From Takashimella koratensis (lineage: Eukaryota > Basidiomycota > Tremellomycetes > Trichosporonales > Tetragoniomycetaceae): a stretch of DNA of 64,000 nt. Below, one piece after another: positions 27,405 to 59,351 of this stretch. The stretch spans positions 1,869,185-1,933,184 of the forward strand of contig BCKT01000003.1 of assembly GCA_003116875.1 (NCBI GenBank), written 5' to 3'. The first letter of the stretch is position 1, and each line of letters begins with the position of its first letter. The notes under the pieces are model-generated. The model was not told the DNA's origin. It saw only the letters and a list, made by a program, of their open reading frames with translations, and did not search any database. Position numbers and translations under genes: made by a program.

Positions 27405-29176
27405 ATGTTCCGTCTCTCTGCCTTTGCCGCCTTCGCTTTGCTCCTGTCGTGTCTCTCGTCTCTGACCACTGCCGCCCCGGCACCTCCTGCGATCGGCAAA
27501 CGATGGACACTCGACTCGCTCTGTACGACCAGCTACGTTGCTTCTCTTGTCAGCGAGCTCTCTGATCTTTCCACGGTCACCTACCACCCTTCCTCCGTCA
27601 ACGCTACCATCTTTACCAACCACTCTGCCACTCCCAACGCTGGCGGACCGTTCTGGCCCCTTGTCACCGGCTTGGACTTTTGCAACGTCACCCTCTCCTT
27701 CACTCACAAGAACCTCAACGATAATGTAAGTGTCTCCAGAGTCTTCGCTGACATCAGGTCACCCTCACGCTGCAGTTCCCAGACCCAGCGGTCTATAAGA
27801 ACCGCTGGCTGACGCTTGGTGGTGGTGGCTGGTCGGTCAGCGGGACCGGCAATCTCGACGCCGGGTTGGCGTACGGCGCAGCGAGCGGTGCGACAGACGG
27901 CGGGTTCGGCTACGGTGGTCAGCTTACGGCTCAGCTCATCTCGAAAGTTAACGGCACCATCGACTGGTCACGTATCGAGAGCTTTGGCTACCAAGCGATC
28001 CACGAGCTCACGGTTACCGGTAAAGAGCTCGCCAAATCCTTTTACAACGCGACGAGCATCACTTCCTACTACATGGGTTGCTCGGAGGGTGGACGTGAGG
28101 GACACCAGTCGACCCAAAAGTACCCCAAAGACTTTAACGGTGTCGTCGCTGCTGCTCCAGCCTTCTACTTCCCCGTTGTGCAGCTCGCTCAGGCTTGGCC
28201 CAACATGGCGATGGCGCAGGCGAATCACTGGCCGAGCCCCTGTGCGTTCCAGGCGGTCTTCGAGGACGTCATCGCTGAGTGCGACCCCCTCGACGGGAAG
28301 TCGGACGGGATCGTTTCACGCTCAGAGCTTTGCTCGTATGACACTTCCAACAGTGTTGGCAAGACCTGGTCCAACTGCAACCTCACTTCGGTGACTAGCG
28401 TTGGCGCCCCGACCTCTGGCACCATCTCACAGGCGGACGCCGACGTTGTCAAGGCCATCTACCGCGGTCCGTTCACCTCCAGCGACGAGCAGATCTACTG
28501 GACTTATCGCAACGGCACCAACCTCAACGTCGAGGCTGTCGTCGCATACCAGAATGGCTCGTGGGTCAGCGGTCAAAACTTCTTCTTTGGTACCTACTAT
28601 CAAAACCTTGTGCTCAAGAACACGGTCGCTCCGACCGTCAACTACAGTACACTCTCGGTCGATGGCATCTACGAGCTCATGAAGGAGGGGCTTCAACAGT
28701 ACGGTAGCTTCACCGAGGCGACTTTCCCAGACCTGAGCGATTTCCAGGCAGCTGGGGGCAAGCTCATCCATTGGCACGGCGAGCAGGATACCAACCTCTA
28801 CCCACAGGGGTCTGCCAACTTCTTCGAGCGTGTTCAGTCGATCATGTACCCCGGATCGACCGACTATGGACCGATCAACGATTTTTACCGCTTCTTCCTT
28901 GTCCCCGGAGCCGCTCACTGCGCGATCAACTCGTACCAGCCGGATGGTCCGTTCCCTCAGTACGCTCTGCAGCAGCTCATCGACTGGGTCGAGCAAGGCA
29001 CCGCTCCTGCTTACCTGAACGGCACGACTCAGAGCGGGTCGAGCACGCAACCTGAGATTTGTCTTTGGCCGACCCGCCCGTCATGGGACAGCTCTGGCAA
29101 GTTCAGCTGCGTCCAGGCCAACGCCGCCGCAGAATTCATCCAGCCGCTCAATGCTTGGAAGGTGCACGACTATTAG
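27405..29176 (+). CDS. secreted feruloyl esterase / tannase family protein
   Basis: Two exons (27405-27725 and 27758-29176, with a 32-nt intron) encode 579 residues. A signal peptide ('FAAFALLLSCLSSLTTAAPA') begins the protein. The catalytic serine sits in 'YYMGCSEGGREGHQSTQKYP' (the CSxGG form of the tannase family PF07519, in which a Cys next to Ser pairs by disulfide with a Cys next to His). The acid is in 'HGEQDTNLYPQG' and the His in 'VPGAAHCAIN'. A Ca-binding-like acidic loop 'ECDPLDGKSDGIVS' is present, as in this family. Many NxS/T sites fit secretion. The enzyme would release ferulic or related hydroxycinnamic or gallic acids from plant cell-wall esters. Feruloyl esterase against tannase cannot be separated by eye. 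Confidence 0.92.
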
Positions 29177-49008: not shown

Positions 49009-50357
<1,349 letters not shown>

Positions 50358-50409: not shown

Positions 50410-53119
50410 CTAGTCTTCGAAGAATCCCACGATCGCCTTGAGATCGGCTACACCGACCCGTCCTTGTGGATAACATATCCAGACTCCTTCACCTTGGACG
50501 CCAAACTTGTCCCTGAACGTCTTCTTTTCTCGCAGGCTAAGACTGCGCACGATCCCCTTGTACGTGTGTGATAAGAAACGTGCACGAGCGCCTCGTAGTT
50601 TATTGCCTGGTACAAGCTTGTCCGAGACGCCCGCACCGAAAGTAACAGGTTGATTTGGGATAGCCGAGAGAGCGACGGCAACGAGCGCCTCGATAGAACT
50701 TGACCCTGAGTTCGGAAAGTCGAGCGCCCATTTGACTTGATACCCGTGCTTAGGCGATAATCGTGCGAGCACGACCATTGCGTCGATGACCTCGTCCACA
50801 CCAGACCCGCGGTATGCAACAAAATACCGCCGATGACTGTCGTCCTTCCACGGTGCGATTTCCGTCAGGTGCACCTGTTTTCCCTTCTCTCCACGCTCCT
50901 TCTTCCACTCTTCGATTCGTGCGTCGACCTTGCGAATAAGATCGTCACTAGGTCGTACTTCCTCACAGCGGATTCCCTCTCGTTCCGCCCGCCGTTGGTC
51001 GCGACTGTCCTGCTCCCCGTGTGGCTGATCGGCGTCCAGTCGTTGTTCCTCGGTACAGCTGAGCGTGCGCCACCCGAAAGTTCGCCCAAGAATATCCTCC
51101 ATCTCGTCCGAGACCAACATCCACACTGGAGTCAAATTGAGCTTTCGTTTGGCGAAATCGATGAAAGAGGACGCGACGCTGGCCTTTTGTGAATCATCAC
51201 ACAGTGGGTCACCAGTGATGAAGACGAATTTGCCTTGGGGAACGTAGCCGACCGCTGCGCCGTTCGAGTGTCGCCAGATCTCAAAGCGGTCGTCGAGCCA
51301 CGAGGTATTGGAGGCGTCTCCGTAGTTGGCGATGAGGTTTTCCAACGGTGGGGCTTCCTTCGTCGCTGGGTTGAGAGTGGAGGACTCGGGGTGGGGCAAG
51401 ACCAGTGGTCGCGCTGGCAAGGACTTTGGATCTCGATGGAACAATGAAGCATTCCGTACGTTCTCCAGTCCTAGCGCAAATGTGATGATCCGTTCCAAGC
51501 CTAGACCAGCTCCGCCATGTGGTGAAACGCCGTAATCAAACGCGCCGAGGTACTCATCCATCCCCTGTTCCGCAATCCCGGCCTCCCTCATCGCATCCCG
51601 CAGCTGCTTTGGATCGTGTATCCGCTGTCCGCCCGTGCATATCTCTTGGCCTCGCACAAACATGTCAAACGATCGCGTCGTAGTGTCGTCGAACGGCATG
51701 GTGTAGAATGGTCGCGCGCTCTTCGGGAACTTGTCGAGAACGAAGAAATCTGCCTGATACTTGTCCTTGACGAGCTCGCCTAGTCGAATCTCATCGCGTG
51801 TAGATAGGTCTTCCATCTCGACCTCTCGGCCGTCACGTCGCAGCATGTCGACGCCCTCGGCAAACGGGATCACGGGCACATCGTCGGGGTCGCTCGGCCA
51901 CAGCAAATTTGGTACGTCCCAGCGAGTTTTGACGAGATTGATTTGGTCCGCGTCCGCGTATATCGCTTCAAAGATCTTCAATAAAACCTTGATCAGAACG
52001 CTGATGACCTCTTCATATGTGGTTTGAAGAACCATCTCTAGATCGAGACCCGTGTACTCGGTCAGGTGGCGGTGTGTGTTGCTGTTTTCGGCTCGGAAGA
52101 CGGGTCCAATCTAAAGTCAGACAAGTCTAACAGAAACCTACCTCGTAGACTTTTCGAAGGTCGGCAGAGATGGCCATTTGTTTTGCGAGTTGGGGACTTT
52201 GCGCGAGGAACGCCTGTCGACCAAAGTAGTTAACCTTGAAGACCTCGGCACCGCTCTCCGTCGCTGAGGGTTGAAGCTTGGGCGTATTGATCTCCAAAAA
52301 GCCAAGATCGTCGAGCCCGTCTCGCCATGCCTTGAGCACTTTGGAGCGGATACGGAAGATGGCCTGGTTGGCGGGATCACGCAGGTCGACGATGCGGTTG
52401 CTCAGTCGTGTGTGGAGGGCAGTCGGAGGGTTATAGATAGAGAAGGGGACGTCTGCGTCGCTGACGAGGTGAATCGTCTCGACATGTACCTCGAGGTCGT
52501 GCATCGTTGCTGATTTGATGGGTTCTTTTGGCTCTCGCAGCTCCCCAGTGACATGAACAATAGACTCTGGAGATAGCCGCCGAGTCCAGCGTATCATGTG
52601 CTCCGACGCCTCCTCCCTCGTCACGACGCCCTGTATCGAGTGGGTCCCAGCTCGGAAAAGGATAAACTCTAGTTTCGACGACAGGTGGCGCTGGGTGTGG
52701 ATGCGGGCTCGGAATGCGACATGTTTGCCTGCTTTCAACTCCGACACCTCTCCGAGGTCTAACAGCGCCGCGGGGTGGTCGAGGTCGCCATATTTCTCTC
52801 GCATCTCTGGGGACTCTGTCTCGGCGGCTTCCTTGTCCTCTCGCTCGAGTCGCTGTTTCAACTCTTGTCGTTCCGCCTCGTGCCGCTCTGCCCGAGCAGC
52901 CTTGTCCTCCCTTTTCGCAGCATGTCGGGCGACCGCCTTGCCAGAGGTGACCCCGGCGTCACCCTTTTCGTCATCATCGTGACCGTTTGCGGAAGACTTG
53001 ATACGAGCGGCAATCACTGACGGTTTGAGGTTGTGGCCGAGTTTTGCCAGTGGCCCAGGTGACGACGAGCGCGATGGGGACGGTGAGTCTGATTGCGAGG
53101 ATGGCGAGTCGACAGCCAT
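50410..53119 (-). CDS. erdS: AspRS-DUF2156 fusion, ergosteryl-3beta-O-L-aspartate synthase (ErdS)-type
   Basis: Two exons (53119-52142 and 52110-50410, 31-nt intron) encode 892 residues. Residues 1-~110 are Ser-rich then Lys/Arg/Glu-rich, like the tRNA-binding extension of cytosolic eukaryotic AspRS. An OB fold follows ('FRARIHTQRHLSSKLEF'), then the class II core: 'QSPQLAKQMAISADLRKVYE', motif 2 'FRAENSNTHRHLTEYTGLDL', and motif 3 'GGAGLGLERI' near residue 530. AspRS normally ends soon after. Here about 310 more residues form a GNAT-like DUF2156 domain ('VGYVPQGKFVFITGDPLCDD', 'RYFVAYRGSGVDEVIDAMVV', 'VKWALDFPNSGSSSIEALVA'), the transferase fold of bacterial MprF-type enzymes. Published work on Aspergillus named this fusion ErdS: it charges tRNA-Asp and passes the Asp to ergosterol. 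Function here is inferred from architecture. A separate AspRS for translation is expected elsewhere. Confidence 0.9.
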
Positions 53120-53601
53120 GATGAAGGTGGTTGACGTCGAGAGAGAAGAAGTGAATATGTGGTGATAGATCAGCCTGCAGAGCTCATCACGAAGTATCAC
53201 CGTCGTTGCCAAGGAAGGGAATAGGGAAGCGAGCGCAAAGCTATGAGGTCAGGCCATGTTTCACGCTCCTCCTTGGCTCTCGGCGACTGAAATTGAGCGA
53301 GGCATTGGGCGTTACTCTGGTGTTGCCGCTGCTATCCGGCGTTTGAGAGGGGATACATGTGCCGGGAGTCAATGATGTCAAGCATTGCTGGCGAGGATGG
53401 GGCAAGGTCAGTGACGAAGGGGTTGCGGGAATCAACGTGACGCGCTAACCCACGAGTTGTTTACGTGGTCGCGCCCTTCTTTTGCTTCGGGGGCGCAACG
53501 ACGTCACGGAAGCATCCTCGGAGCCCCACAGCACCGCTCCGCCGGAATCAATCACGTTGGCACAGGCTCCTCTCATCACCTCTTTATCTACCACAACCAT
53601 C
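53120..53601. promoter_or_regulatory. shared promoter, erdS (-) / hydrolase (+)
   Basis: A 482-base gap separates the start codons of the two divergent genes. A GACGTCA (CRE-like) element lies near 53500. No clear TATA box was seen in either direction. An in-frame ATG at 53482 could lengthen the hydrolase by 40 residues, and one at 53212 could lengthen the synthase by 31; both extensions look non-conserved. Confidence 0.5.
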
Positions 53602-54768
53602 ATGTCGTCCGAGGCGAATCAACGCCCGACCGAGGCGGTGGCCGACAAGGTTGTCGACACCATCCTGCCGACCGCTGAAGACGGAACCGTCGACGCGCCT
53701 CGTCCGGATATTCCTTTACCTCCACCGTCCCGGTGGAAGCTCCAAGCGCGCGCTGCCGTCCTGCGCAACCTTGCCAACTTGGGCTACACCCTATTCAACA
53801 GAAGCGCGCCGGCTGCGACCAAGACCATTTGGATCGAGAGCACTCTATCGACTCACAAAGGAAAGGCAAAGATCAGGCTTGATGTCTACGATCCTCGACC
53901 GCGACACAGCAAGGAACAGACGGCGAAGCGACCCGTCGTCATCACCTACCACGGCGGAGGGTACACCATCGGGCACGGCACCGACGATGCGCGATGGGCA
54001 AAAGCTTGTATGGATGGACTTGGTGCCGTGGTTGTCGGCGTCACTTATCGCCTTGCTCCAAGCTACCCTTTCCCGACGCCACTGGAAGACTCTGCCGACG
54101 CGATCCTCTGGGTTGCCCAGCACGCCGACGAGTTGAATATCGACATGGACCGCTTGTTCCTCTCTGGATTCTCGACCGGAGGCAGCCTCGTTTTCTCCTC
54201 ACACATGCTGTTACACCATGCTCAAGCCCAAGGGCAAGGTCGGACCCCGCGTGCAAGCGCCGCATCGACCCTAGGTACCGGTCAATGGTCATACTCATAC
54301 GATATCCCACATCCGCCCAAGATCTGCGGCATCGTCTCCTTCTATCCGATTCTCGACTGGACCATTCCGCGATACGTCAAGCGAGGGCGGTGCCCAAAGC
54401 CCGAGCTCACCCTTCCCGTCTCTATCACCGAGCTGACGGACGCCGCCCACCTCCACCCGGATCCCGATCGCTTCGACCCGCGCCTAAGCCCATCCGTTGC
54501 GCCTGACGAGATGGTCGACAGCCTCCCGCCAATCCACATGGTTTGCTGCGAGAACGACATGCTTCTCCAGGAAGGCGTCGATTTCACCGAGCGGTTGAAG
54601 CAACGAGGGAAGACCGTGACAACCCGAGTCGTCAACGGCGAGCAGCATGCATGGGACAAGCCACCGCCCCTGAACCCGAAACCGAGTGTCGCGGTGGAGT
54701 ACGACGCTGCATTGGCGGCGATGAAGGAGTGGATGACGGTCACGACCCCTGCTCGGGGTGTATATTAG
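53602..54768 (+). CDS. alpha/beta hydrolase (abhydrolase_3 type), ErdH candidate
   Basis: This is a single exon of 388 residues. The start is taken at 53602, because the 40 residues before it in the open frame are Ser/Thr-rich leader sequence. The hormone-sensitive-lipase group pattern is clear: oxyanion motif 'VITYHGGGYTIGHG', 'GVTYRLAPSYPFPTPLEDSA', nucleophile elbow 'LFLSGFSTGGSLVFSSHML' (GFSTGG), acid region 'MVCCENDMLLQEGVDF', and catalytic His in 'VVNGEQHAWDKPP'. There is no signal peptide or membrane helix. It is transcribed away from the ErdS-type fusion through a common promoter. Published work described a second enzyme, ErdH, that removes Asp from ergosteryl-aspartate; this gene is the natural candidate by position and fold. 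A general esterase unrelated to sterols remains possible. Confidence 0.8.
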   Translation: MSSEANQRPTEAVADKVVDTILPTAEDGTVDAPRPDIPLPPPSRWKLQARAAVLRNLANLGYTLFNRSAPAATKTIWIESTLSTHKGKAKIRLDVYDPRPRHSKEQTAKRPVVITYHGGGYTIGHGTDDARWAKACMDGLGAVVVGVTYRLAPSYPFPTPLEDSADAILWVAQHADELNIDMDRLFLSGFSTGGSLVFSSHMLLHHAQAQGQGRTPRASAASTLGTGQWSYSYDIPHPPKICGIVSFYPILDWTIPRYVKRGRCPKPELTLPVSITELTDAAHLHPDPDRFDPRLSPSVAPDEMVDSLPPIHMVCCENDMLLQEGVDFTERLKQRGKTVTTRVVNGEQHAWDKPPPLNPKPSVAVEYDAALAAMKEWMTVTTPARGVY

Positions 54769-55026: not shown

Positions 55027-55951
55027 ATGCTACCCACCTCATTCAGGATGACCGCCGTTCGCACTCTCAAAGTTGACGTCAACGTAGGTGCCCTGACATT
55101 GACGCAACTGACGCTAGACCGACGTGATCTGCACCTTTTGCATGCTGGGCCTTCGACAACTTGATTTTGGTAAGTAACTGGCGTTGATGGTCACTAACGT
55201 CAAGCGAAATCCAAATACAACTCGCAACGCCCGCCAATCGAGCTGGATATTCGAATCCACCCCTTCCCTCTCAACGGGATTATCAGCAACGAGGCCGTAT
55301 CTAGAAAAGCTTGGGGATCTGGTCGATTCGGCGAGGAAGCATGGACAAAGATCACACAAGGCCTTGTACCCAAGTTTAATGCCGTTGGACTCAACCCGTG
55401 AGTGCTTTGGTTGACCCACGCTGATGAGCAGAAACTTTGACGGCATGATATCCAGTTCACGCCAGTCTCACCGTCTCGAAGTGTACGCGCTCAAGCACAA
55501 ACCAAAAGCGCAGGTCGCCCTGGCTTTGGATTTGTTCACTTCGTTCCATATCGATGGGAAGGCACCCTCGGACCAAGCAGCATTGACGACCCTTGCTGTC
55601 AAACATGGCGTCTTCCCGGACCAAGACAGTGTCCTCAAGTTCCTCAATGGCGATTAGTGCGACAGCGAGGTTGCTGCGTCCTATAAGCGAGCGCGCGAGG
55701 CTGGGGTACCAGGCGTACCGTTCTTCGTCTTTGAGGACAAGTACACGGCCGAGGGGGCAGTGGGAGTGGACGGTTTTGTACAAGTAAGTATTGACGGATG
55801 CTTTGCTGACGTTCAGATCCTCGAGTCTGTGGTTGATCAATCTGCAATTGTCCCAGTTGAGGGGCAAGCCTGCGAGCTAGAGTCTGTTGGGACCGCCGGA
55901 GACATGGCAAGAGTAGGAGGAGCTGCGAGCTCATACGTCAAGAATTCATAG
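55027..55951 (+). pseudogene. DsbA/FrnE-like thioredoxin-fold oxidoreductase with in-frame TAG
   Basis: Exons with 35-nt introns read 'MTAVRTLKVDVNTDVICTFC' (start at 55027 or 55048) with the redox motif CTFC, then 'AKSKYNSQRPPIELDIRIHP', 'AYGLVP'-type downstream segments such as 'GLVPKFNAVGLNP', 'HKPKAQVALALDLFTSFHID' and 'HGVFPDQDSVLKFLNGD'. A TAG at 55655-55657 interrupts the frame. The same frame then continues with the conserved 'YKRAREAGVPGVPFFVFEDK' (the cis-Pro GVPFF of the family) and a last exon ending 'GGAASSYVKNS' at 55951. FrnE/DsbA-like proteins are 2-hydroxychromene isomerase or disulfide oxidoreductase relatives. One nonsense codon in an otherwise intact gene suggests a recent pseudogene, readthrough, or a base error. 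No intron could remove the TAG. Confidence 0.7.
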
Positions 55952-55995
55952 CTTAGATCAAAGCCTCTTCACACCTGAGCCGACTTGTAAACCAC

Positions 55996-56751
55996 TCACA
56001 CCAAAGCCTCTTGGACCACCTTCCAATACCTCACTTTGTCATGCACAGCATGCGAGACATGCGCTCCACCAAACTGCTCCAGCCTTACGTCCCACCCCTT
56101 TGCCTTGGCGTCACGAGCGTTGGCCTCGACCGCGGGATACTCGACCATTCGATCCTCACGACTGTAGATGTAGCATCGTTTGCCGATCGTCAAGGCGGTG
56201 GGGTCGAGCAAAAAGTTGTATGCGGTGACGAGCGGGTTGGTAGTGAACAGGGCGATGAAGCGGTAGACATTTAAGGCGATGATGAGGAGAAGGCAAAGTG
56301 GGTAGTAGACGATTGGAGACTTGGGAAACCCATGCGCGAATGCCGCGTAAGCCGACCAGAACGTGGGAAGGCCCGGCGCGGAATCAAGCAGCATGTGGGT
56401 GACGGGGATGGGCTTTCGGTATGCGCTCGAGAGTGCGCGAACCATCTTGACACCGCCGTTGGAGAAGGCTACCAGGCGGACATCGCTGCCGAGATCGGGA
56501 AGCAGAGGGCGCAGGGGGCTTGCAAGGGACTCGACCGATTTGAAAACGAAATCGTTCGGGTTGCTGGTGAGAACGAGGACGTTGGAGGATGGGAAGAGTT
56601 TGAGATACTCGTCGGTATGCTTGGCGATGTGTCGATTGGATGCGCCCATCCACGCGGCGACGACGAGGAAGGGGCCCGAGGCTTGGTCGCGGCGGAGCAG
56701 CTGGGCATTGGCGGTGAGCCGCACAAAGTTAGGCAGCGCCTTAGATGTCAT
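55996..56751 (-). CDS. TMEM53/DUF829 alpha/beta-hydrolase-like protein
   Basis: This single exon encodes 251 residues from ATG 56751. The start is chosen because it begins 'MTSKALPNFVRLT'; an upstream in-frame ATG at 56820 adds a non-conserved leader. 'FLVVAAWMGASNRHIAKHTD' is the first strand and loop of the family. 'RLVAFSNGGVKMVRAL' holds the nucleophile elbow (FSNGG). 'LLDSAPGLP' and 'YIYSREDRMVEYPAVEANAR' (acid) follow, and 'FGGAHVSHAVHDKVRYWKVV' gives the terminal His. A hydrophobic stretch in the middle ('YYPLCLLLIIALNVYRFIAL') suggests membrane attachment. The family's biochemical role is poorly known. It ends 44 bases from the convergent DsbA-like gene. Confidence 0.87.
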   Translation of the reverse strand: MTSKALPNFVRLTANAQLLRRDQASGPFLVVAAWMGASNRHIAKHTDEYLKLFPSSNVLVLTSNPNDFVFKSVESLASPLRPLLPDLGSDVRLVAFSNGGVKMVRALSSAYRKPIPVTHMLLDSAPGLPTFWSAYAAFAHGFPKSPIVYYPLCLLLIIALNVYRFIALFTTNPLVTAYNFLLDPTALTIGKRCYIYSREDRMVEYPAVEANARDAKAKGWDVRLEQFGGAHVSHAVHDKVRYWKVVQEALV

Positions 56752-56878
56752 GGCGGATGGTGAGGAAGGGAAAAGCGGCCGCGGGATACGGATCCTATTA
56801 TAGACCACCTGTCTTGGCAACGGCCAACGGACGCTAGGACCTCGCGCGGCCGCGGATGCTATGCATGATCACTCTGAT

Positions 56879-57703
56879 TCATCGGGAGCCCGACAGCATC
56901 TCCGTGAGCTCCTTATACGCCGTCTCTACCTCGTCGGGGATATCAACATGATTAATGAACCCCTGGCCGAGTGGTCCATACCCGCCTGGACCATCTCTCA
57001 ACCGCGGGATCTCCCCTAGCAACAAGTCAAAGAACCGCTGATAGCTCCAGAGCGCCGCATCCTTCTCGCCTCGTAGGCATGCCCACTGCACCCTTTCACC
57101 CTTTGCCCCCTCCCCACGTCCAAGCTCCACGCGCGGTACAAACGTCGGCCACGTCATCAGCGTCGGTGATCTCGTCTCGTCCTCGGCGTAGTACTTTTCC
57201 AACCCGGCGAGCGTGCGGATGGACATCGTCGGGTCTTGTACAATAATGACGCGATCGACTCGCTGCGCGTCGATGAGCCGCTTGCTAAACAGCATGTTTT
57301 GGCCGCAGTTGGTGCTCTTATCGTCGACCAAGATAGAGAAGTCGCCTTGTCGTGCTCGCTCAGCGAGTTTGGGCCAGCAGTTGACAAGAACAAGCTCGAG
57401 CACGCGAGCCTCGGGCAGGCCAAGCTCTCGAATCGAGTGTGACTGAGCGGTCCGCGCAAAGCGGGGGTCCTGTTCGATGGCATCGTAGAGGTAGGAAGTC
57501 GAGTGACCGATCCCGCCGGATAGGACTAGCGTCGCCGGCGTCGTCAACCCGTCGAGATGGTCGTACAGTGTCGTCATGGTGTAAAGGACCGCATGACCGG
57601 CGAGGATATAGACAGTGTGGGGCTGTTCATTTGGGGGCTGAGCGGGTGCATGGGCAAGGAAATGTGCGACGAGGTTGATGTTGTCAACAGTGTGCTGGTT
57701 CAT
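56879..57703 (-). CDS. DUF218 (YdcF-like) domain protein
   Basis: This single exon encodes 274 residues, starting 'MNQHTVDNINLVAHFL' at 57703 (upstream in-frame ATGs at 57859, 57790 and nearby lie at or before the TATA box). Family marks are 'VYILAGHAVLYTMTTLYDHL', 'ATLVLSGGIGHSTSYLYDAI' (the GGI turn), 'DDKSTNCGQNM' (matching the E-STNT-EN motif) and 'VIIVQDPTMSIRTLAGLEKY'. Members resemble E. coli YdcF, an S-adenosylmethionine-binding Rossmann-like protein of uncertain function. In fungi it is sparsely distributed. It shares a 109-base promoter with the divergent phosphomannose isomerase gene. Confidence 0.83.
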   Translation of the reverse strand: MNQHTVDNINLVAHFLAHAPAQPPNEQPHTVYILAGHAVLYTMTTLYDHLDGLTTPATLVLSGGIGHSTSYLYDAIEQDPRFARTAQSHSIRELGLPEARVLELVLVNCWPKLAERARQGDFSILVDDKSTNCGQNMLFSKRLIDAQRVDRVIIVQDPTMSIRTLAGLEKYYAEDETRSPTLMTWPTFVPRVELGRGEGAKGERVQWACLRGEKDAALWSYQRFFDLLLGEIPRLRDGPGGYGPLGQGFINHVDIPDEVETAYKELTEMLSGSR

Positions 57704-57766
57704 GGTGGGGAGTGAAAAACAGACTTGACGCGATGCGGTCATCGATGTCATCATGGCTCCAGCACT

Positions 57767-57774
57767 TATATAAA
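57767..57774. promoter_or_regulatory. TATA box in a 109-base bidirectional promoter
   Basis: TTATATAA is nearly palindromic and is the only TATA element between the starts of the DUF218 gene (ATG 57703, -) and phosphomannose isomerase (ATG 57813, +). It stands about 40 bases from the isomerase start and 64 from the other. Confidence 0.55.
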
Positions 57775-57812
57775 GCTGGCGAGTATCCATCTCACCTCGT
57801 TTACCAGCCAAT

Positions 57813-59351
57813 ATGACAACCGACGCCCGTGTACGACGCCTGGCGTGTAATCCCAACAACTACCCATGTACGCCCACTCAGCGCTGCATATGCTGACTCG
57901 CAGGGGGAAAGCAAGGCGACCAGGGGCTAGCCGCTCAGCTCGCGCCTAACGCGTCTCCGGATTTCAAGCTGGAAGGGACTAAAACATACGCCGAGGTGAG
58001 AGCGGTGACGGGCCTTGAGCTGACAACAGCTATGGATGGGAACGCACCCGAAGAATGAAGCCAAGCTATGGGGAAAGGACGAGACCTTGCGAGAGTTTGT
58101 AACCAGCCACCCGGACTTGTTGGGTGATGTGGCCCAAGTGAACAAGTTTCCGCCGCCTTTCGAAGGCGACTCGTTACATGTCCCGTTCCTCTTCAAGATA
58201 CTCAGCTGTCGCCAAGGTGGGTCGTGATCAGGAGCCGCGCTGACATGAAGCCCTCCCCCTACAGATCCATCCCGACAAGGAGTTGGCCGAGCAGCTTCAC
58301 CGCAAGAACCCGGATCAGTTTCCAGAGTAAGTAACTATACATTCGCGACTGATCTTAGCACCAACCACAAACCTGAGATCGCTGTATGCTTGACCGATCG
58401 CTTCTTGGGCTTTGCAGGGTTTCGGCCATACGAGCAGATCCGGTCATTCTTGCTATGCACCCCCGAGGTAACCATGCTGCCCGGAAACATCAAGGAGGCT
58501 ATCAAAGAGTTCACCGCCGCAGGGCAACTGGACAAGACCACGCAGTCGGCGAAGCTCAGAACCCTCTGGCATGCCTTCCTGGATCTGAAGGGAGACAAGG
58601 CGGTGAACGTGTTCTGCACTAGGGTCTCACGAGAAGGAATTGAAGCGTTCTCGCCGATGGGAGAAAAGGAGCTCGACTCGGCGGAGCGCAGCGCCCTCGT
58701 CGACGCCGTTGCCATCCTGCACAGGTACAATCCTGGTGACGCTTCCATCTTCACCTCATTGTAAGTCTGAACGCAGTCGTGGCTGACGAAAGATTCTTCA
58801 TGAACTTGGTTGAGTTGCACAAGGGCGAGGGTATGTACGTCGGCGCCGACGGAATTCACGCGTGGTTGGAGGGAGGTGAGTACTGCGTTGAGACCACACT
58901 GACCATAGACATTGTCGAGCTCATGGCGGTATCCGACAACGTGCTCAACGTAGGCTTTACACCCGAGAAAGACTCGACGCGGCTCGTGGCCAACGCAATC
59001 ACCGTCACCCCAAAAGCCAAGTCTCAGCTTCTCTTGAAGCCCCAAACATTTAAAAAGGGCAAGAAGGGCAAAACTACCGTGTACAGCACCCCGTTCGAAG
59101 AGTTCTCGATCCTTCGCGTTTCCGGAAGCGAAGAGCTTGAGGCGTTGACGGGGCCCGCCGTCGCCATTGTCACTGAAGGAAAAATGACTTTGTGGGACAA
59201 GGGCGAGCGACAAGTGCAGCAAGGCCAAGGACCAGGGACAGTATACTTTGTTGGTGCAGGCACGAATCTCGTGGTCGAGGGTGACGGAGAGGTCTGGATG
59301 GCGTTTTACGATGGAGACCCAACGGTAGCGGAGCAAGTGGGACCACAATGA
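57813..59351 (+). CDS. mannose-6-phosphate isomerase, type I
   Basis: Exons with 31-50 nt introns run from ATG 57813 to TGA 59351. The zinc-site segments of the type I family are present: 'YAELWMGTHPKNEAKLWG', 'LPLQIHPDKELAEQLHRKN' (Gln and His ligands, restored by splicing of a 34-nt intron at about 58218-58251), 'TNHKPEIAVCLTDRFLGFAG' (Glu ligand), and 'GMYVGADGIHAWLEG' (His ligand) followed across an intron by 'DIVELMAVSDNVLNVGFTPE'. The C-terminal cupin has 'GPAVAIVTEGKMTLWDKGER'. The enzyme interconverts fructose-6-P and mannose-6-P and so feeds GDP-mannose for glycoprotein and wall synthesis, including the substrate line of ALG12 at the other end of the window. It equals yeast PMI40/Cryptococcus MAN1 by homology. 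Confidence 0.93.

Follow-up and report, generated by a model that had tools for sequence, protein, structure and literature searches.

ErdS is the ergosteryl-3β-O-L-aspartate synthase reportedly described by Yakobov et al. in 2020, and a PNAS study from 2020 is said to use the name ErdH for the Erg-Asp hydrolase. The substrates of the bacterial MprF and LysX enzymes are bacterial glycerolipids. In the accessible part of PMC9437257 ErdS is given as an AspRS fused to a DUF2156 domain, and the A. fumigatus ErdS is AFUA_1G02570 in the accessible part of PMC11619415. ErgS, the ergosteryl-3β-O-glycine synthase, is also a DUF2156-type sterol aminoacyl transferase, as judged from the accessible part of PMC10449517 and from its reported kinship; according to the same text its Gly-tRNA is supplied by an independent glycyl-tRNA synthetase, and ErgS is found in Ascomycota only. 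Neither aminoacylated sterols nor the combination of free-standing DUF2156, sterol and fungi gave a match in our literature searches, and a search for Erg-Asp or Erg-Gly gave the review PMC9437257 alone. The locus analysed here, located within a stretch of DNA of 64,000 nucleotides (the window), very probably represents an ErdS/ErdH pair covering both halves of a cycle in which aspartate is attached to sterol and removed again, with substrates and products assigned by analogy to the known family. The AspRS part of the fused protein would charge tRNA-Asp with aspartate, its DUF2156 part would hand this aspartate over from the charged tRNA to the 3β hydroxyl of ergosterol, and the adjoining ErdH would cleave the ester, giving free ergosterol back. 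The pair is a known system and mostly as expected, not something new.

The two genes are divergent, with the AspRS–DUF2156 fusion on the minus strand, the alpha/beta hydrolase on the plus strand and 482 bp from ATG to ATG (Table 1). The fusion gene, with its ATG at 53119 and a stop codon ending at 50410, encodes a product of 892 residues and has a single intron of 31 nt, which must be spliced out since only then does KVYE join IGPVFRAEN. This length is not unusual here, because four introns of 33–35 nt each were found in the gene that we modelled downstream of the hydrolase. The intron of the fusion gene had not been recorded in the original prediction. That prediction had described a complete class II AspRS with motifs 2 and 3 running without a stop into a DUF2156 domain, and a single-exon hydrolase with an intact Ser-Asp-His pattern starting 482 bases away in the opposite direction. 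All of this was confirmed, by a tRNA-synt_2 match and intact motifs in the alignment with a solved fused chain, by a junction that lies open inside exon 2 and is followed by about 315 residues of DUF2156 fold, and by a hydrolase of 388 residues starting at the ATG at 53602. A single bidirectional promoter with co-regulation of both genes is possible, as judged from their common upstream gap. Using a simple pattern search, we found no TATA box and no SRE-like (sterol regulatory element) site in this gap, and one CCAAT-type match (ATTGG) at 53304, patterns that decide nothing with regard to a shared promoter.

Table 1. Positions of the features of the divergent ErdS-type and ErdH-type genes in the window.
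Feature	Position	Strand	Remarks
ErdS-type exon 1	52142..53119	-	residues 1-326: charged N-terminal extension, OB-fold region 135-218, start of class II core
Intron, 31 nt, GT-AG, phase 0	52111..52141	-	directly before IGPVFRAEN (motif 2)
ErdS-type exon 2 with stop	50410..52110	-	residues 327-892: AspRS motifs 2 and 3, linker, DUF2156
DUF2156 (MprF-like) aminoacyl transferase domain	50413..51357	-	about residues 578-892
Gap between divergent start codons, possible shared promoter	53120..53601	.	482 bp
ErdH-type alpha/beta hydrolase, hormone-sensitive-lipase kind	53602..54768	+	388 aa, single exon
HGGG oxyanion-hole motif	53950..53961	+	hydrolase residues 117-120; 39/39 aligned sequences
Nucleophile Ser191 in GFSTG	54172..54174	+	39/39 aligned sequences
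Acid Asp319	54556..54558	+	39/39 aligned sequences
His349	54646..54648	+	39/39 aligned sequences

Like ErdS, the fusion carries AspRS and DUF2156 in one protein. Pfam matched tRNA-synt_2 at residues 236–552 (E = 1.5e-73) and LPG_synthase_C (DUF2156) at residues 593–797 (E = 6.5e-10), together with an OB fold at E = 1.1e-5, slightly short of its Pfam cut-off. Motifs 2 and 3 were intact in the Pfam match and in the alignments with the solved fused chain and with relatives, and an MprF-like fold extended along the full length of the DUF2156 part. Three solved fused chains were colinear with the fusion (best E = 1e-226), one of which, 9w9f, has the molecule name ‘Aspartate--tRNA ligase, cytoplasmic’ only; no source organism was shown for the solved fused chains, and 9w9e–9w9g were absent among the fold matches listed for the DUF2156 part. 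Elsewhere in the genome we found an unfused cytosolic AspRS on contig C1, distinct from the fusion, and a bacterial-type AspRS on contig C5, showing that the fusion is a paralogue beside a housekeeping AspRS.

Among the matches listed, the fusion was 54–63% identical to fused relatives over the parts compared, and both tree and alignment grouped its C-terminal domain with other AspRS–DUF2156 fusions. In a quick ErdS tree (LG+G4, without bootstrap, and with a long-branch warning for the window protein with P0029), the window ErdS belonged to a separate group of 12 sequences that includes Naematelia (SH-aLRT 100), on a branch apart from the Sordariomycete sequences. Over the DUF2156 part, the best named ErdS matches among those listed came from Colletotrichum (up to 61%) ahead of Naematelia (57%), which raised the possibility of a horizontal transfer from Sordariomycetes; this reading was set aside in view of the separate group in conjunction with the apparently shared intron. 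The reading frames of five relatives, taken from both branches of the tree, were interrupted at the same residue as the window intron, a position that thus appears to be common to both branches, suggesting that the fusion is ancient and that the fused gene has been vertically inherited. A basidiomycete affiliation of the window pair is probable, carried in the ErdS group by its single species-named sequence, that of Naematelia encephala.

The hydrolase gave an Abhydrolase_3 match (Pfam, E = 1.4e-40) and is, like ErdH, an HSL-type alpha/beta hydrolase encoded beside an ErdS-type gene, with the triad and HGGG motif identical in all 39 sequences aligned, these being the window protein and 38 relatives chosen from the best 120 listed. 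Its fold cannot separate ErdH from other esterases, since general HSL-type esterases fill the 50 fold matches listed. Trees were built from chosen sequences, the larger with 122 and the smaller, also used for constraint tests, with 50 (31 of the best 120 hydrolase sequences listed, 17 of the 31 listed first for a second ErdH-like protein from contig C7, plus both genes from the present genome). The window hydrolase fell inside a clade of 39 sequences (96/89) together with hydrolases located on the same contigs as ErdS-type fusions in other fungi. In the free tree it stood with P0121 and P0122 outside a group (94/86) joining Cryptococcus and Kwoniella with Sordariomycetes; placing it with 13 basidiomycete-type sequences, five of them from Cryptococcus or Kwoniella, was not rejected (p-AU 0.22; all constraint groups were defined after the tree had been viewed). 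The source name ‘putative ergosteryl-3β-O-L-aspartate hydrolase’ is not diagnostic, because it is borne by P0258 outside the 39-sequence clade as well as by P0191 within it; P0194, having the same name, was nested among Sordariomycete sequences in the 122-sequence tree.

The pairing of ErdS and ErdH recurs in other fungi. Comparing the best 120 ErdS with the best 120 hydrolase sequences listed, we found 15 ErdS/hydrolase pairs on shared contigs, recognised by exactly equal contig sizes, and in two species the ErdS-type and ErdH-type genes have consecutive locus tags. As a control, the same lists held one ErdS/hydrolase contig pair within 0.1% in size yet unequal, which makes it unlikely that the 15 exact equalities are due to chance. 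Four of the 15 shared contigs are chromosome-sized (>6 Mb), where sharing alone does not show adjacency, and the 105 ErdS sequences having no partner are uninformative because each list was a best 120 with only the longest contig per cluster included. The shared contigs suggest that the pairing is ancient too. Together with the grouping of both proteins and the separate AspRS, this recurrence supports the proposed synthesis/turnover pair for aminoacylated sterol. The three findings that the original prediction had named as speaking against it did not occur, as the C-terminal domain lies with AspRS-fused DUF2156 domains and not in another clade, the hydrolase sits among ErdS-contig hydrolases and not among unrelated esterases, and the genome has another AspRS.

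With regards to the fused protein, its DUF2156 domain could instead move another amino acid or use another lipid, in the manner of the glycyl enzyme ErgS or of MprF with aminoacyl phosphatidylglycerol, and bacterial MprF and PG synthases were indeed the closest folds besides AspRS among the matches listed, with 14–18% identity to the window domain in the MprF and PG-synthase rows listed. However, fusion to an intact AspRS makes Asp-tRNA the supply at hand, and the fusion can be aligned almost from end to end, in the same order, with the solved AspRS–DUF2156 chain 9w9f. We found no free-standing DUF2156 in the genome, the fusion being the only place where this domain was found, unlike the ErgS arrangement of a DUF2156 protein with no synthetase of its own, which is moreover described solely from Ascomycota in the accessible text cited above; we therefore regard such a substrate as very improbable. 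That the fused gene would mainly serve as a second translational AspRS having an inactive C-terminal domain agrees with its intact AspRS motifs, but is extremely hard to reconcile with the unfused cytosolic AspRS of the same genome and with the many invariant positions retained along the DUF2156 part when the window exon was aligned to a selection of 45 relatives.

A distinctly unlikely alternative is that the fusion is a genuine ErdS while the working Erg-Asp hydrolase is encoded on C7, with the window hydrolase acting on another ester. Here the genome differs from the described ErdH setting in having a second, divergent ErdH-like gene, alone on another contig (C7:311071-312108), whose product has an intact triad and keeps 37 of 44 invariant positions. 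When the genome was probed with the Colletotrichum ErdH-type protein P0124, C7 gave the best single piece (252.7 bits) whereas the window gene was hit in two pieces (190.6 and 170.4), which roughly summed favour the window gene at 361 bits. C7 formed a long branch outside the 39-sequence clade, which makes its tree position unsure, and in contrast to the window gene it could not be placed with the 13 basidiomycete-type sequences (p-AU 0.0012). None of its 46 database matches exceeded 49% identity, or 42% when at least 70% of C7 was covered, and no synthetase was recognised among frames of at least 150 codons in the 9.9 kb surrounding it.

With its two genes kept next to each other, the window pair adds a well-resolved case whose grouping is separate from that of the Ascomycota sequences. 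In the accessible part of PMC9437257, a role of steryl amino acids in membranes, drug response and pathogenicity is proposed, and given that role such a compact two-gene locus, in a clean background with one DUF2156 found and an AspRS apart from the fusion, would lend itself to genetic work. The lone ErdH-like gene on C7 is the remaining question of the system. It is unlikely, but would fit two old, functionally split ErdH-type hydrolases, that C7 deacylates a further, undescribed amino-acid steryl conjugate with the window enzyme tied to ErdS; a second DUF2156-type sterol aminoacyl transferase, the would-be supplier of that substrate, was not found in the genome. A recent duplication making the window ErdH and C7 sisters was rejected (p-AU 0.0022), and the same test did not reject a grouping of the two that also included P0121 and P0122 (p-AU 0.088).

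The original prediction of an AspRS–DUF2156 fusion was borne out by Pfam, which placed both domains in one protein, with the class II tRNA synthetase core (D/K/N type) at residues 236–552, DUF2156 at residues 593–797 and an OB fold, slightly below cut-off, at residues 135–218. The intron of this ErdS-type gene is not unusually short for the genome, since the gene 3′ of the hydrolase was modelled with four introns of 33–35 nt. On the opposite strand, 482 bp from the ATG of the fusion gene, begins the intron-free frame of the ErdH-type hydrolase, whose predicted intact Ser-Asp-His triad was confirmed, with HGGG, Ser191, Asp319 and His349 being invariant in all 39 aligned rows (the window protein and 38 chosen relatives). 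The main interpretation held as well, and judging from sequence the locus would very probably be an ErdS/ErdH sterol-aspartate pair, which is a known kind of system. We consider the pair well supported and the surprise modest, with a divergent second hydrolase on another contig, C7, as the main loose thread.

Features of the ErdS/ErdH locus, its surroundings and the second ErdH-like gene (window positions unless a contig is named)
Feature	Position	Strand	Remarks
ErdS-type gene	ATG 53119, stop ends 50410	-	892 residues after intron removal
ErdS-type gene intron	52111-52141	-	31 nt, GT-AG, single
ErdH-type hydrolase	53602-54768	+	uninterrupted frame, 388 residues, Abhydrolase_3
Second ErdH-like gene	C7:311071-312108		Ser-Asp-His triad intact, distant from ErdS locus
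DsbA/FrnE-like oxidoreductase gene	about 55048-55955	+	3′ of hydrolase
In-frame TAG in DsbA/FrnE-like gene	55655-55657		DSBA-like sequence on either side
DUF829 protein	55999-56868	-	E 1.4e-32
DUF218-like protein	56882-57859	-	E 5e-6, slightly below family cut-off
Tannase/feruloyl esterase family protein	27752-29173	+	E 6.4e-89
Candidate proline iminopeptidase-type alpha/beta hydrolase	about 49673-50330	+	several short exons, likeness by eye

PDB chain 9w9f, a fused protein of 947 residues, was colinear with the fusion from residue 39 to the C-terminus (E 1.1e-226), and we take it to be ErdS, its depositors' molecule name being only 'Aspartate--tRNA ligase, cytoplasmic'; the construct of 9w9e is shorter, and 9w9g has the size of 9w9f with altered residues in the AspRS motifs. 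The fold neighbours of a predicted exon-2 model (pLDDT 85.9, pTM 0.61) were AspRS for model residues 1–233 and MprF or PG synthases for 252–566. A search with the DUF2156 part gave 812 relatives, and each of the 120 listed has both domains. A review describes ErdS as AspRS and DUF2156 united, with Erg-Asp as product (PMC9437257), another paper gives Gly-tRNA as the sole substrate tRNA of ErgS and restricts its occurrence to Ascomycota (PMC10449517), and a third names A. fumigatus erdS as AFUA_1G02570 (PMC11619415).

The window spans C3:1869185-1933184 of a genome of 25.1 Mb in 24 contigs, in which PF00152 gave 15 matches representing six loci. Besides the window gene, we read their translations as two further AspRS genes (one unfused and cytosolic on C1, one bacterial-type on C5), a LysRS on C8 and two AsnRS-like genes, one each on C7 and C14. 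The C1 gene provides the separate AspRS expected beside an ErdS; its protein ends directly after motif 3 and is 47% identical to the window AspRS over a 132-residue exon piece. DUF2156 was found at a single genomic place, both by the Pfam model and with the window's own domain as query, in six-frame searches scoring the best candidates only. The ERG4/ERG24 and ERG2 families were both found, and an ergosterol-type pathway is therefore likely. A 2020 PNAS abstract reportedly states that the entire synthesis and hydrolysis pathway is conserved across higher fungi.

Of 24 short ErdS rows, four (P0029, P0039, P0118 and P0091) open with an unrelated leader and match from residue 326 onward, and P0064 has the same break before IGPVFRAEN, judged by eye; the other 19 start further down and are uninformative on the intron. 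Taking the leaders as intron sequence, an intron before IGPVFRAEN is apparently common to these relatives. Two of the five rows belong to the window's 12-row ErdS group with Naematelia and three to the other branch, with Sordariomycetes, so that fusion and intron, and perhaps also the pairing, seem to predate the split. Comparing 120 ErdS and 119 ErdH rows as listed (hydrolase P0147, with no contig size given, was left out), we found 15 ErdS/ErdH pairs with exactly equal size of the longest contig, six of them on 10–81 kb contigs and 11 with the same organism named in both listings. In one of these pairs, P0059/P0135 (65.7-kb contig), the ErdS member falls in the window's 12-row group. Consecutive locus tags were seen in Phialemonium thermophilum, among the 15, and in Apiospora arundinis, outside them (the longest contigs of its clusters differ). 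A literature search outside the primary ErdS papers found no published account of this adjacency.

In a hydrolase tree of 50 rows (LG+C20), the window protein fell inside a clade of 39 rows (96/89) whose other members include hydrolases from Colletotrichum, Apiospora and Phialemonium as well as from Cryptococcus and Kwoniella. Together with its nearest rows, P0121 and P0122 (53–56% identity), it stood outside a 36-row group (94/86) of the Cryptococcus/Kwoniella rows plus Sordariomycetes, and the tree by itself therefore does not show phylum. Its closest solved structures in a fold search were general HSL-type esterases, and none of the 60 chains listed, out of 119 sequence matches, was named Erg-Asp hydrolase. 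That the C7 gene instead encodes the working Erg-Asp hydrolase seems very improbable. Its protein retains 37 of 44 invariant positions (133/336 identical to the window hydrolase), and a Colletotrichum ErdH-type probe matched it in the best single piece, at 252.7 bits, the window gene being matched in two (190.6 and 170.4 bits). Against this, it joins the ErdH-type clade basally by a long branch (support 99/95, 40 rows), and no synthetase was recognised among frames of at least 150 codons in its 9.9-kb surroundings, where a peroxiredoxin-like frame was found. With groups defined only after the tree had been inspected, its placement among basidiomycete-type ErdH was rejected (p-AU 0.0012), and that of the window hydrolase with the 13 basidiomycete-type rows was not (p-AU 0.22). 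The top-scoring of its 46 database matches were largely the same ErdH-type proteins at 40–42% identity; no match was above 49%, or above 42% where at least 70% of its length was covered. As the unconstrained tree did not unite the window hydrolase with the named basidiomycete rows, we slightly lowered our confidence in the ErdS/ErdH pair and slightly raised that in the C7 gene.

Adjoining the pair is the DUF829 protein, of a family (TMEM53 type) that also has an alpha/beta hydrolase fold. A Pfam search with one exon of the proline iminopeptidase-like candidate gave no support. In the DsbA/FrnE-like gene, DSBA matches were weak and below family cut-off both before the TAG (E 0.019) and after it (E 3.2e-4), and this codon may reflect gene decay, an error in sequencing or a splice missed by the model.
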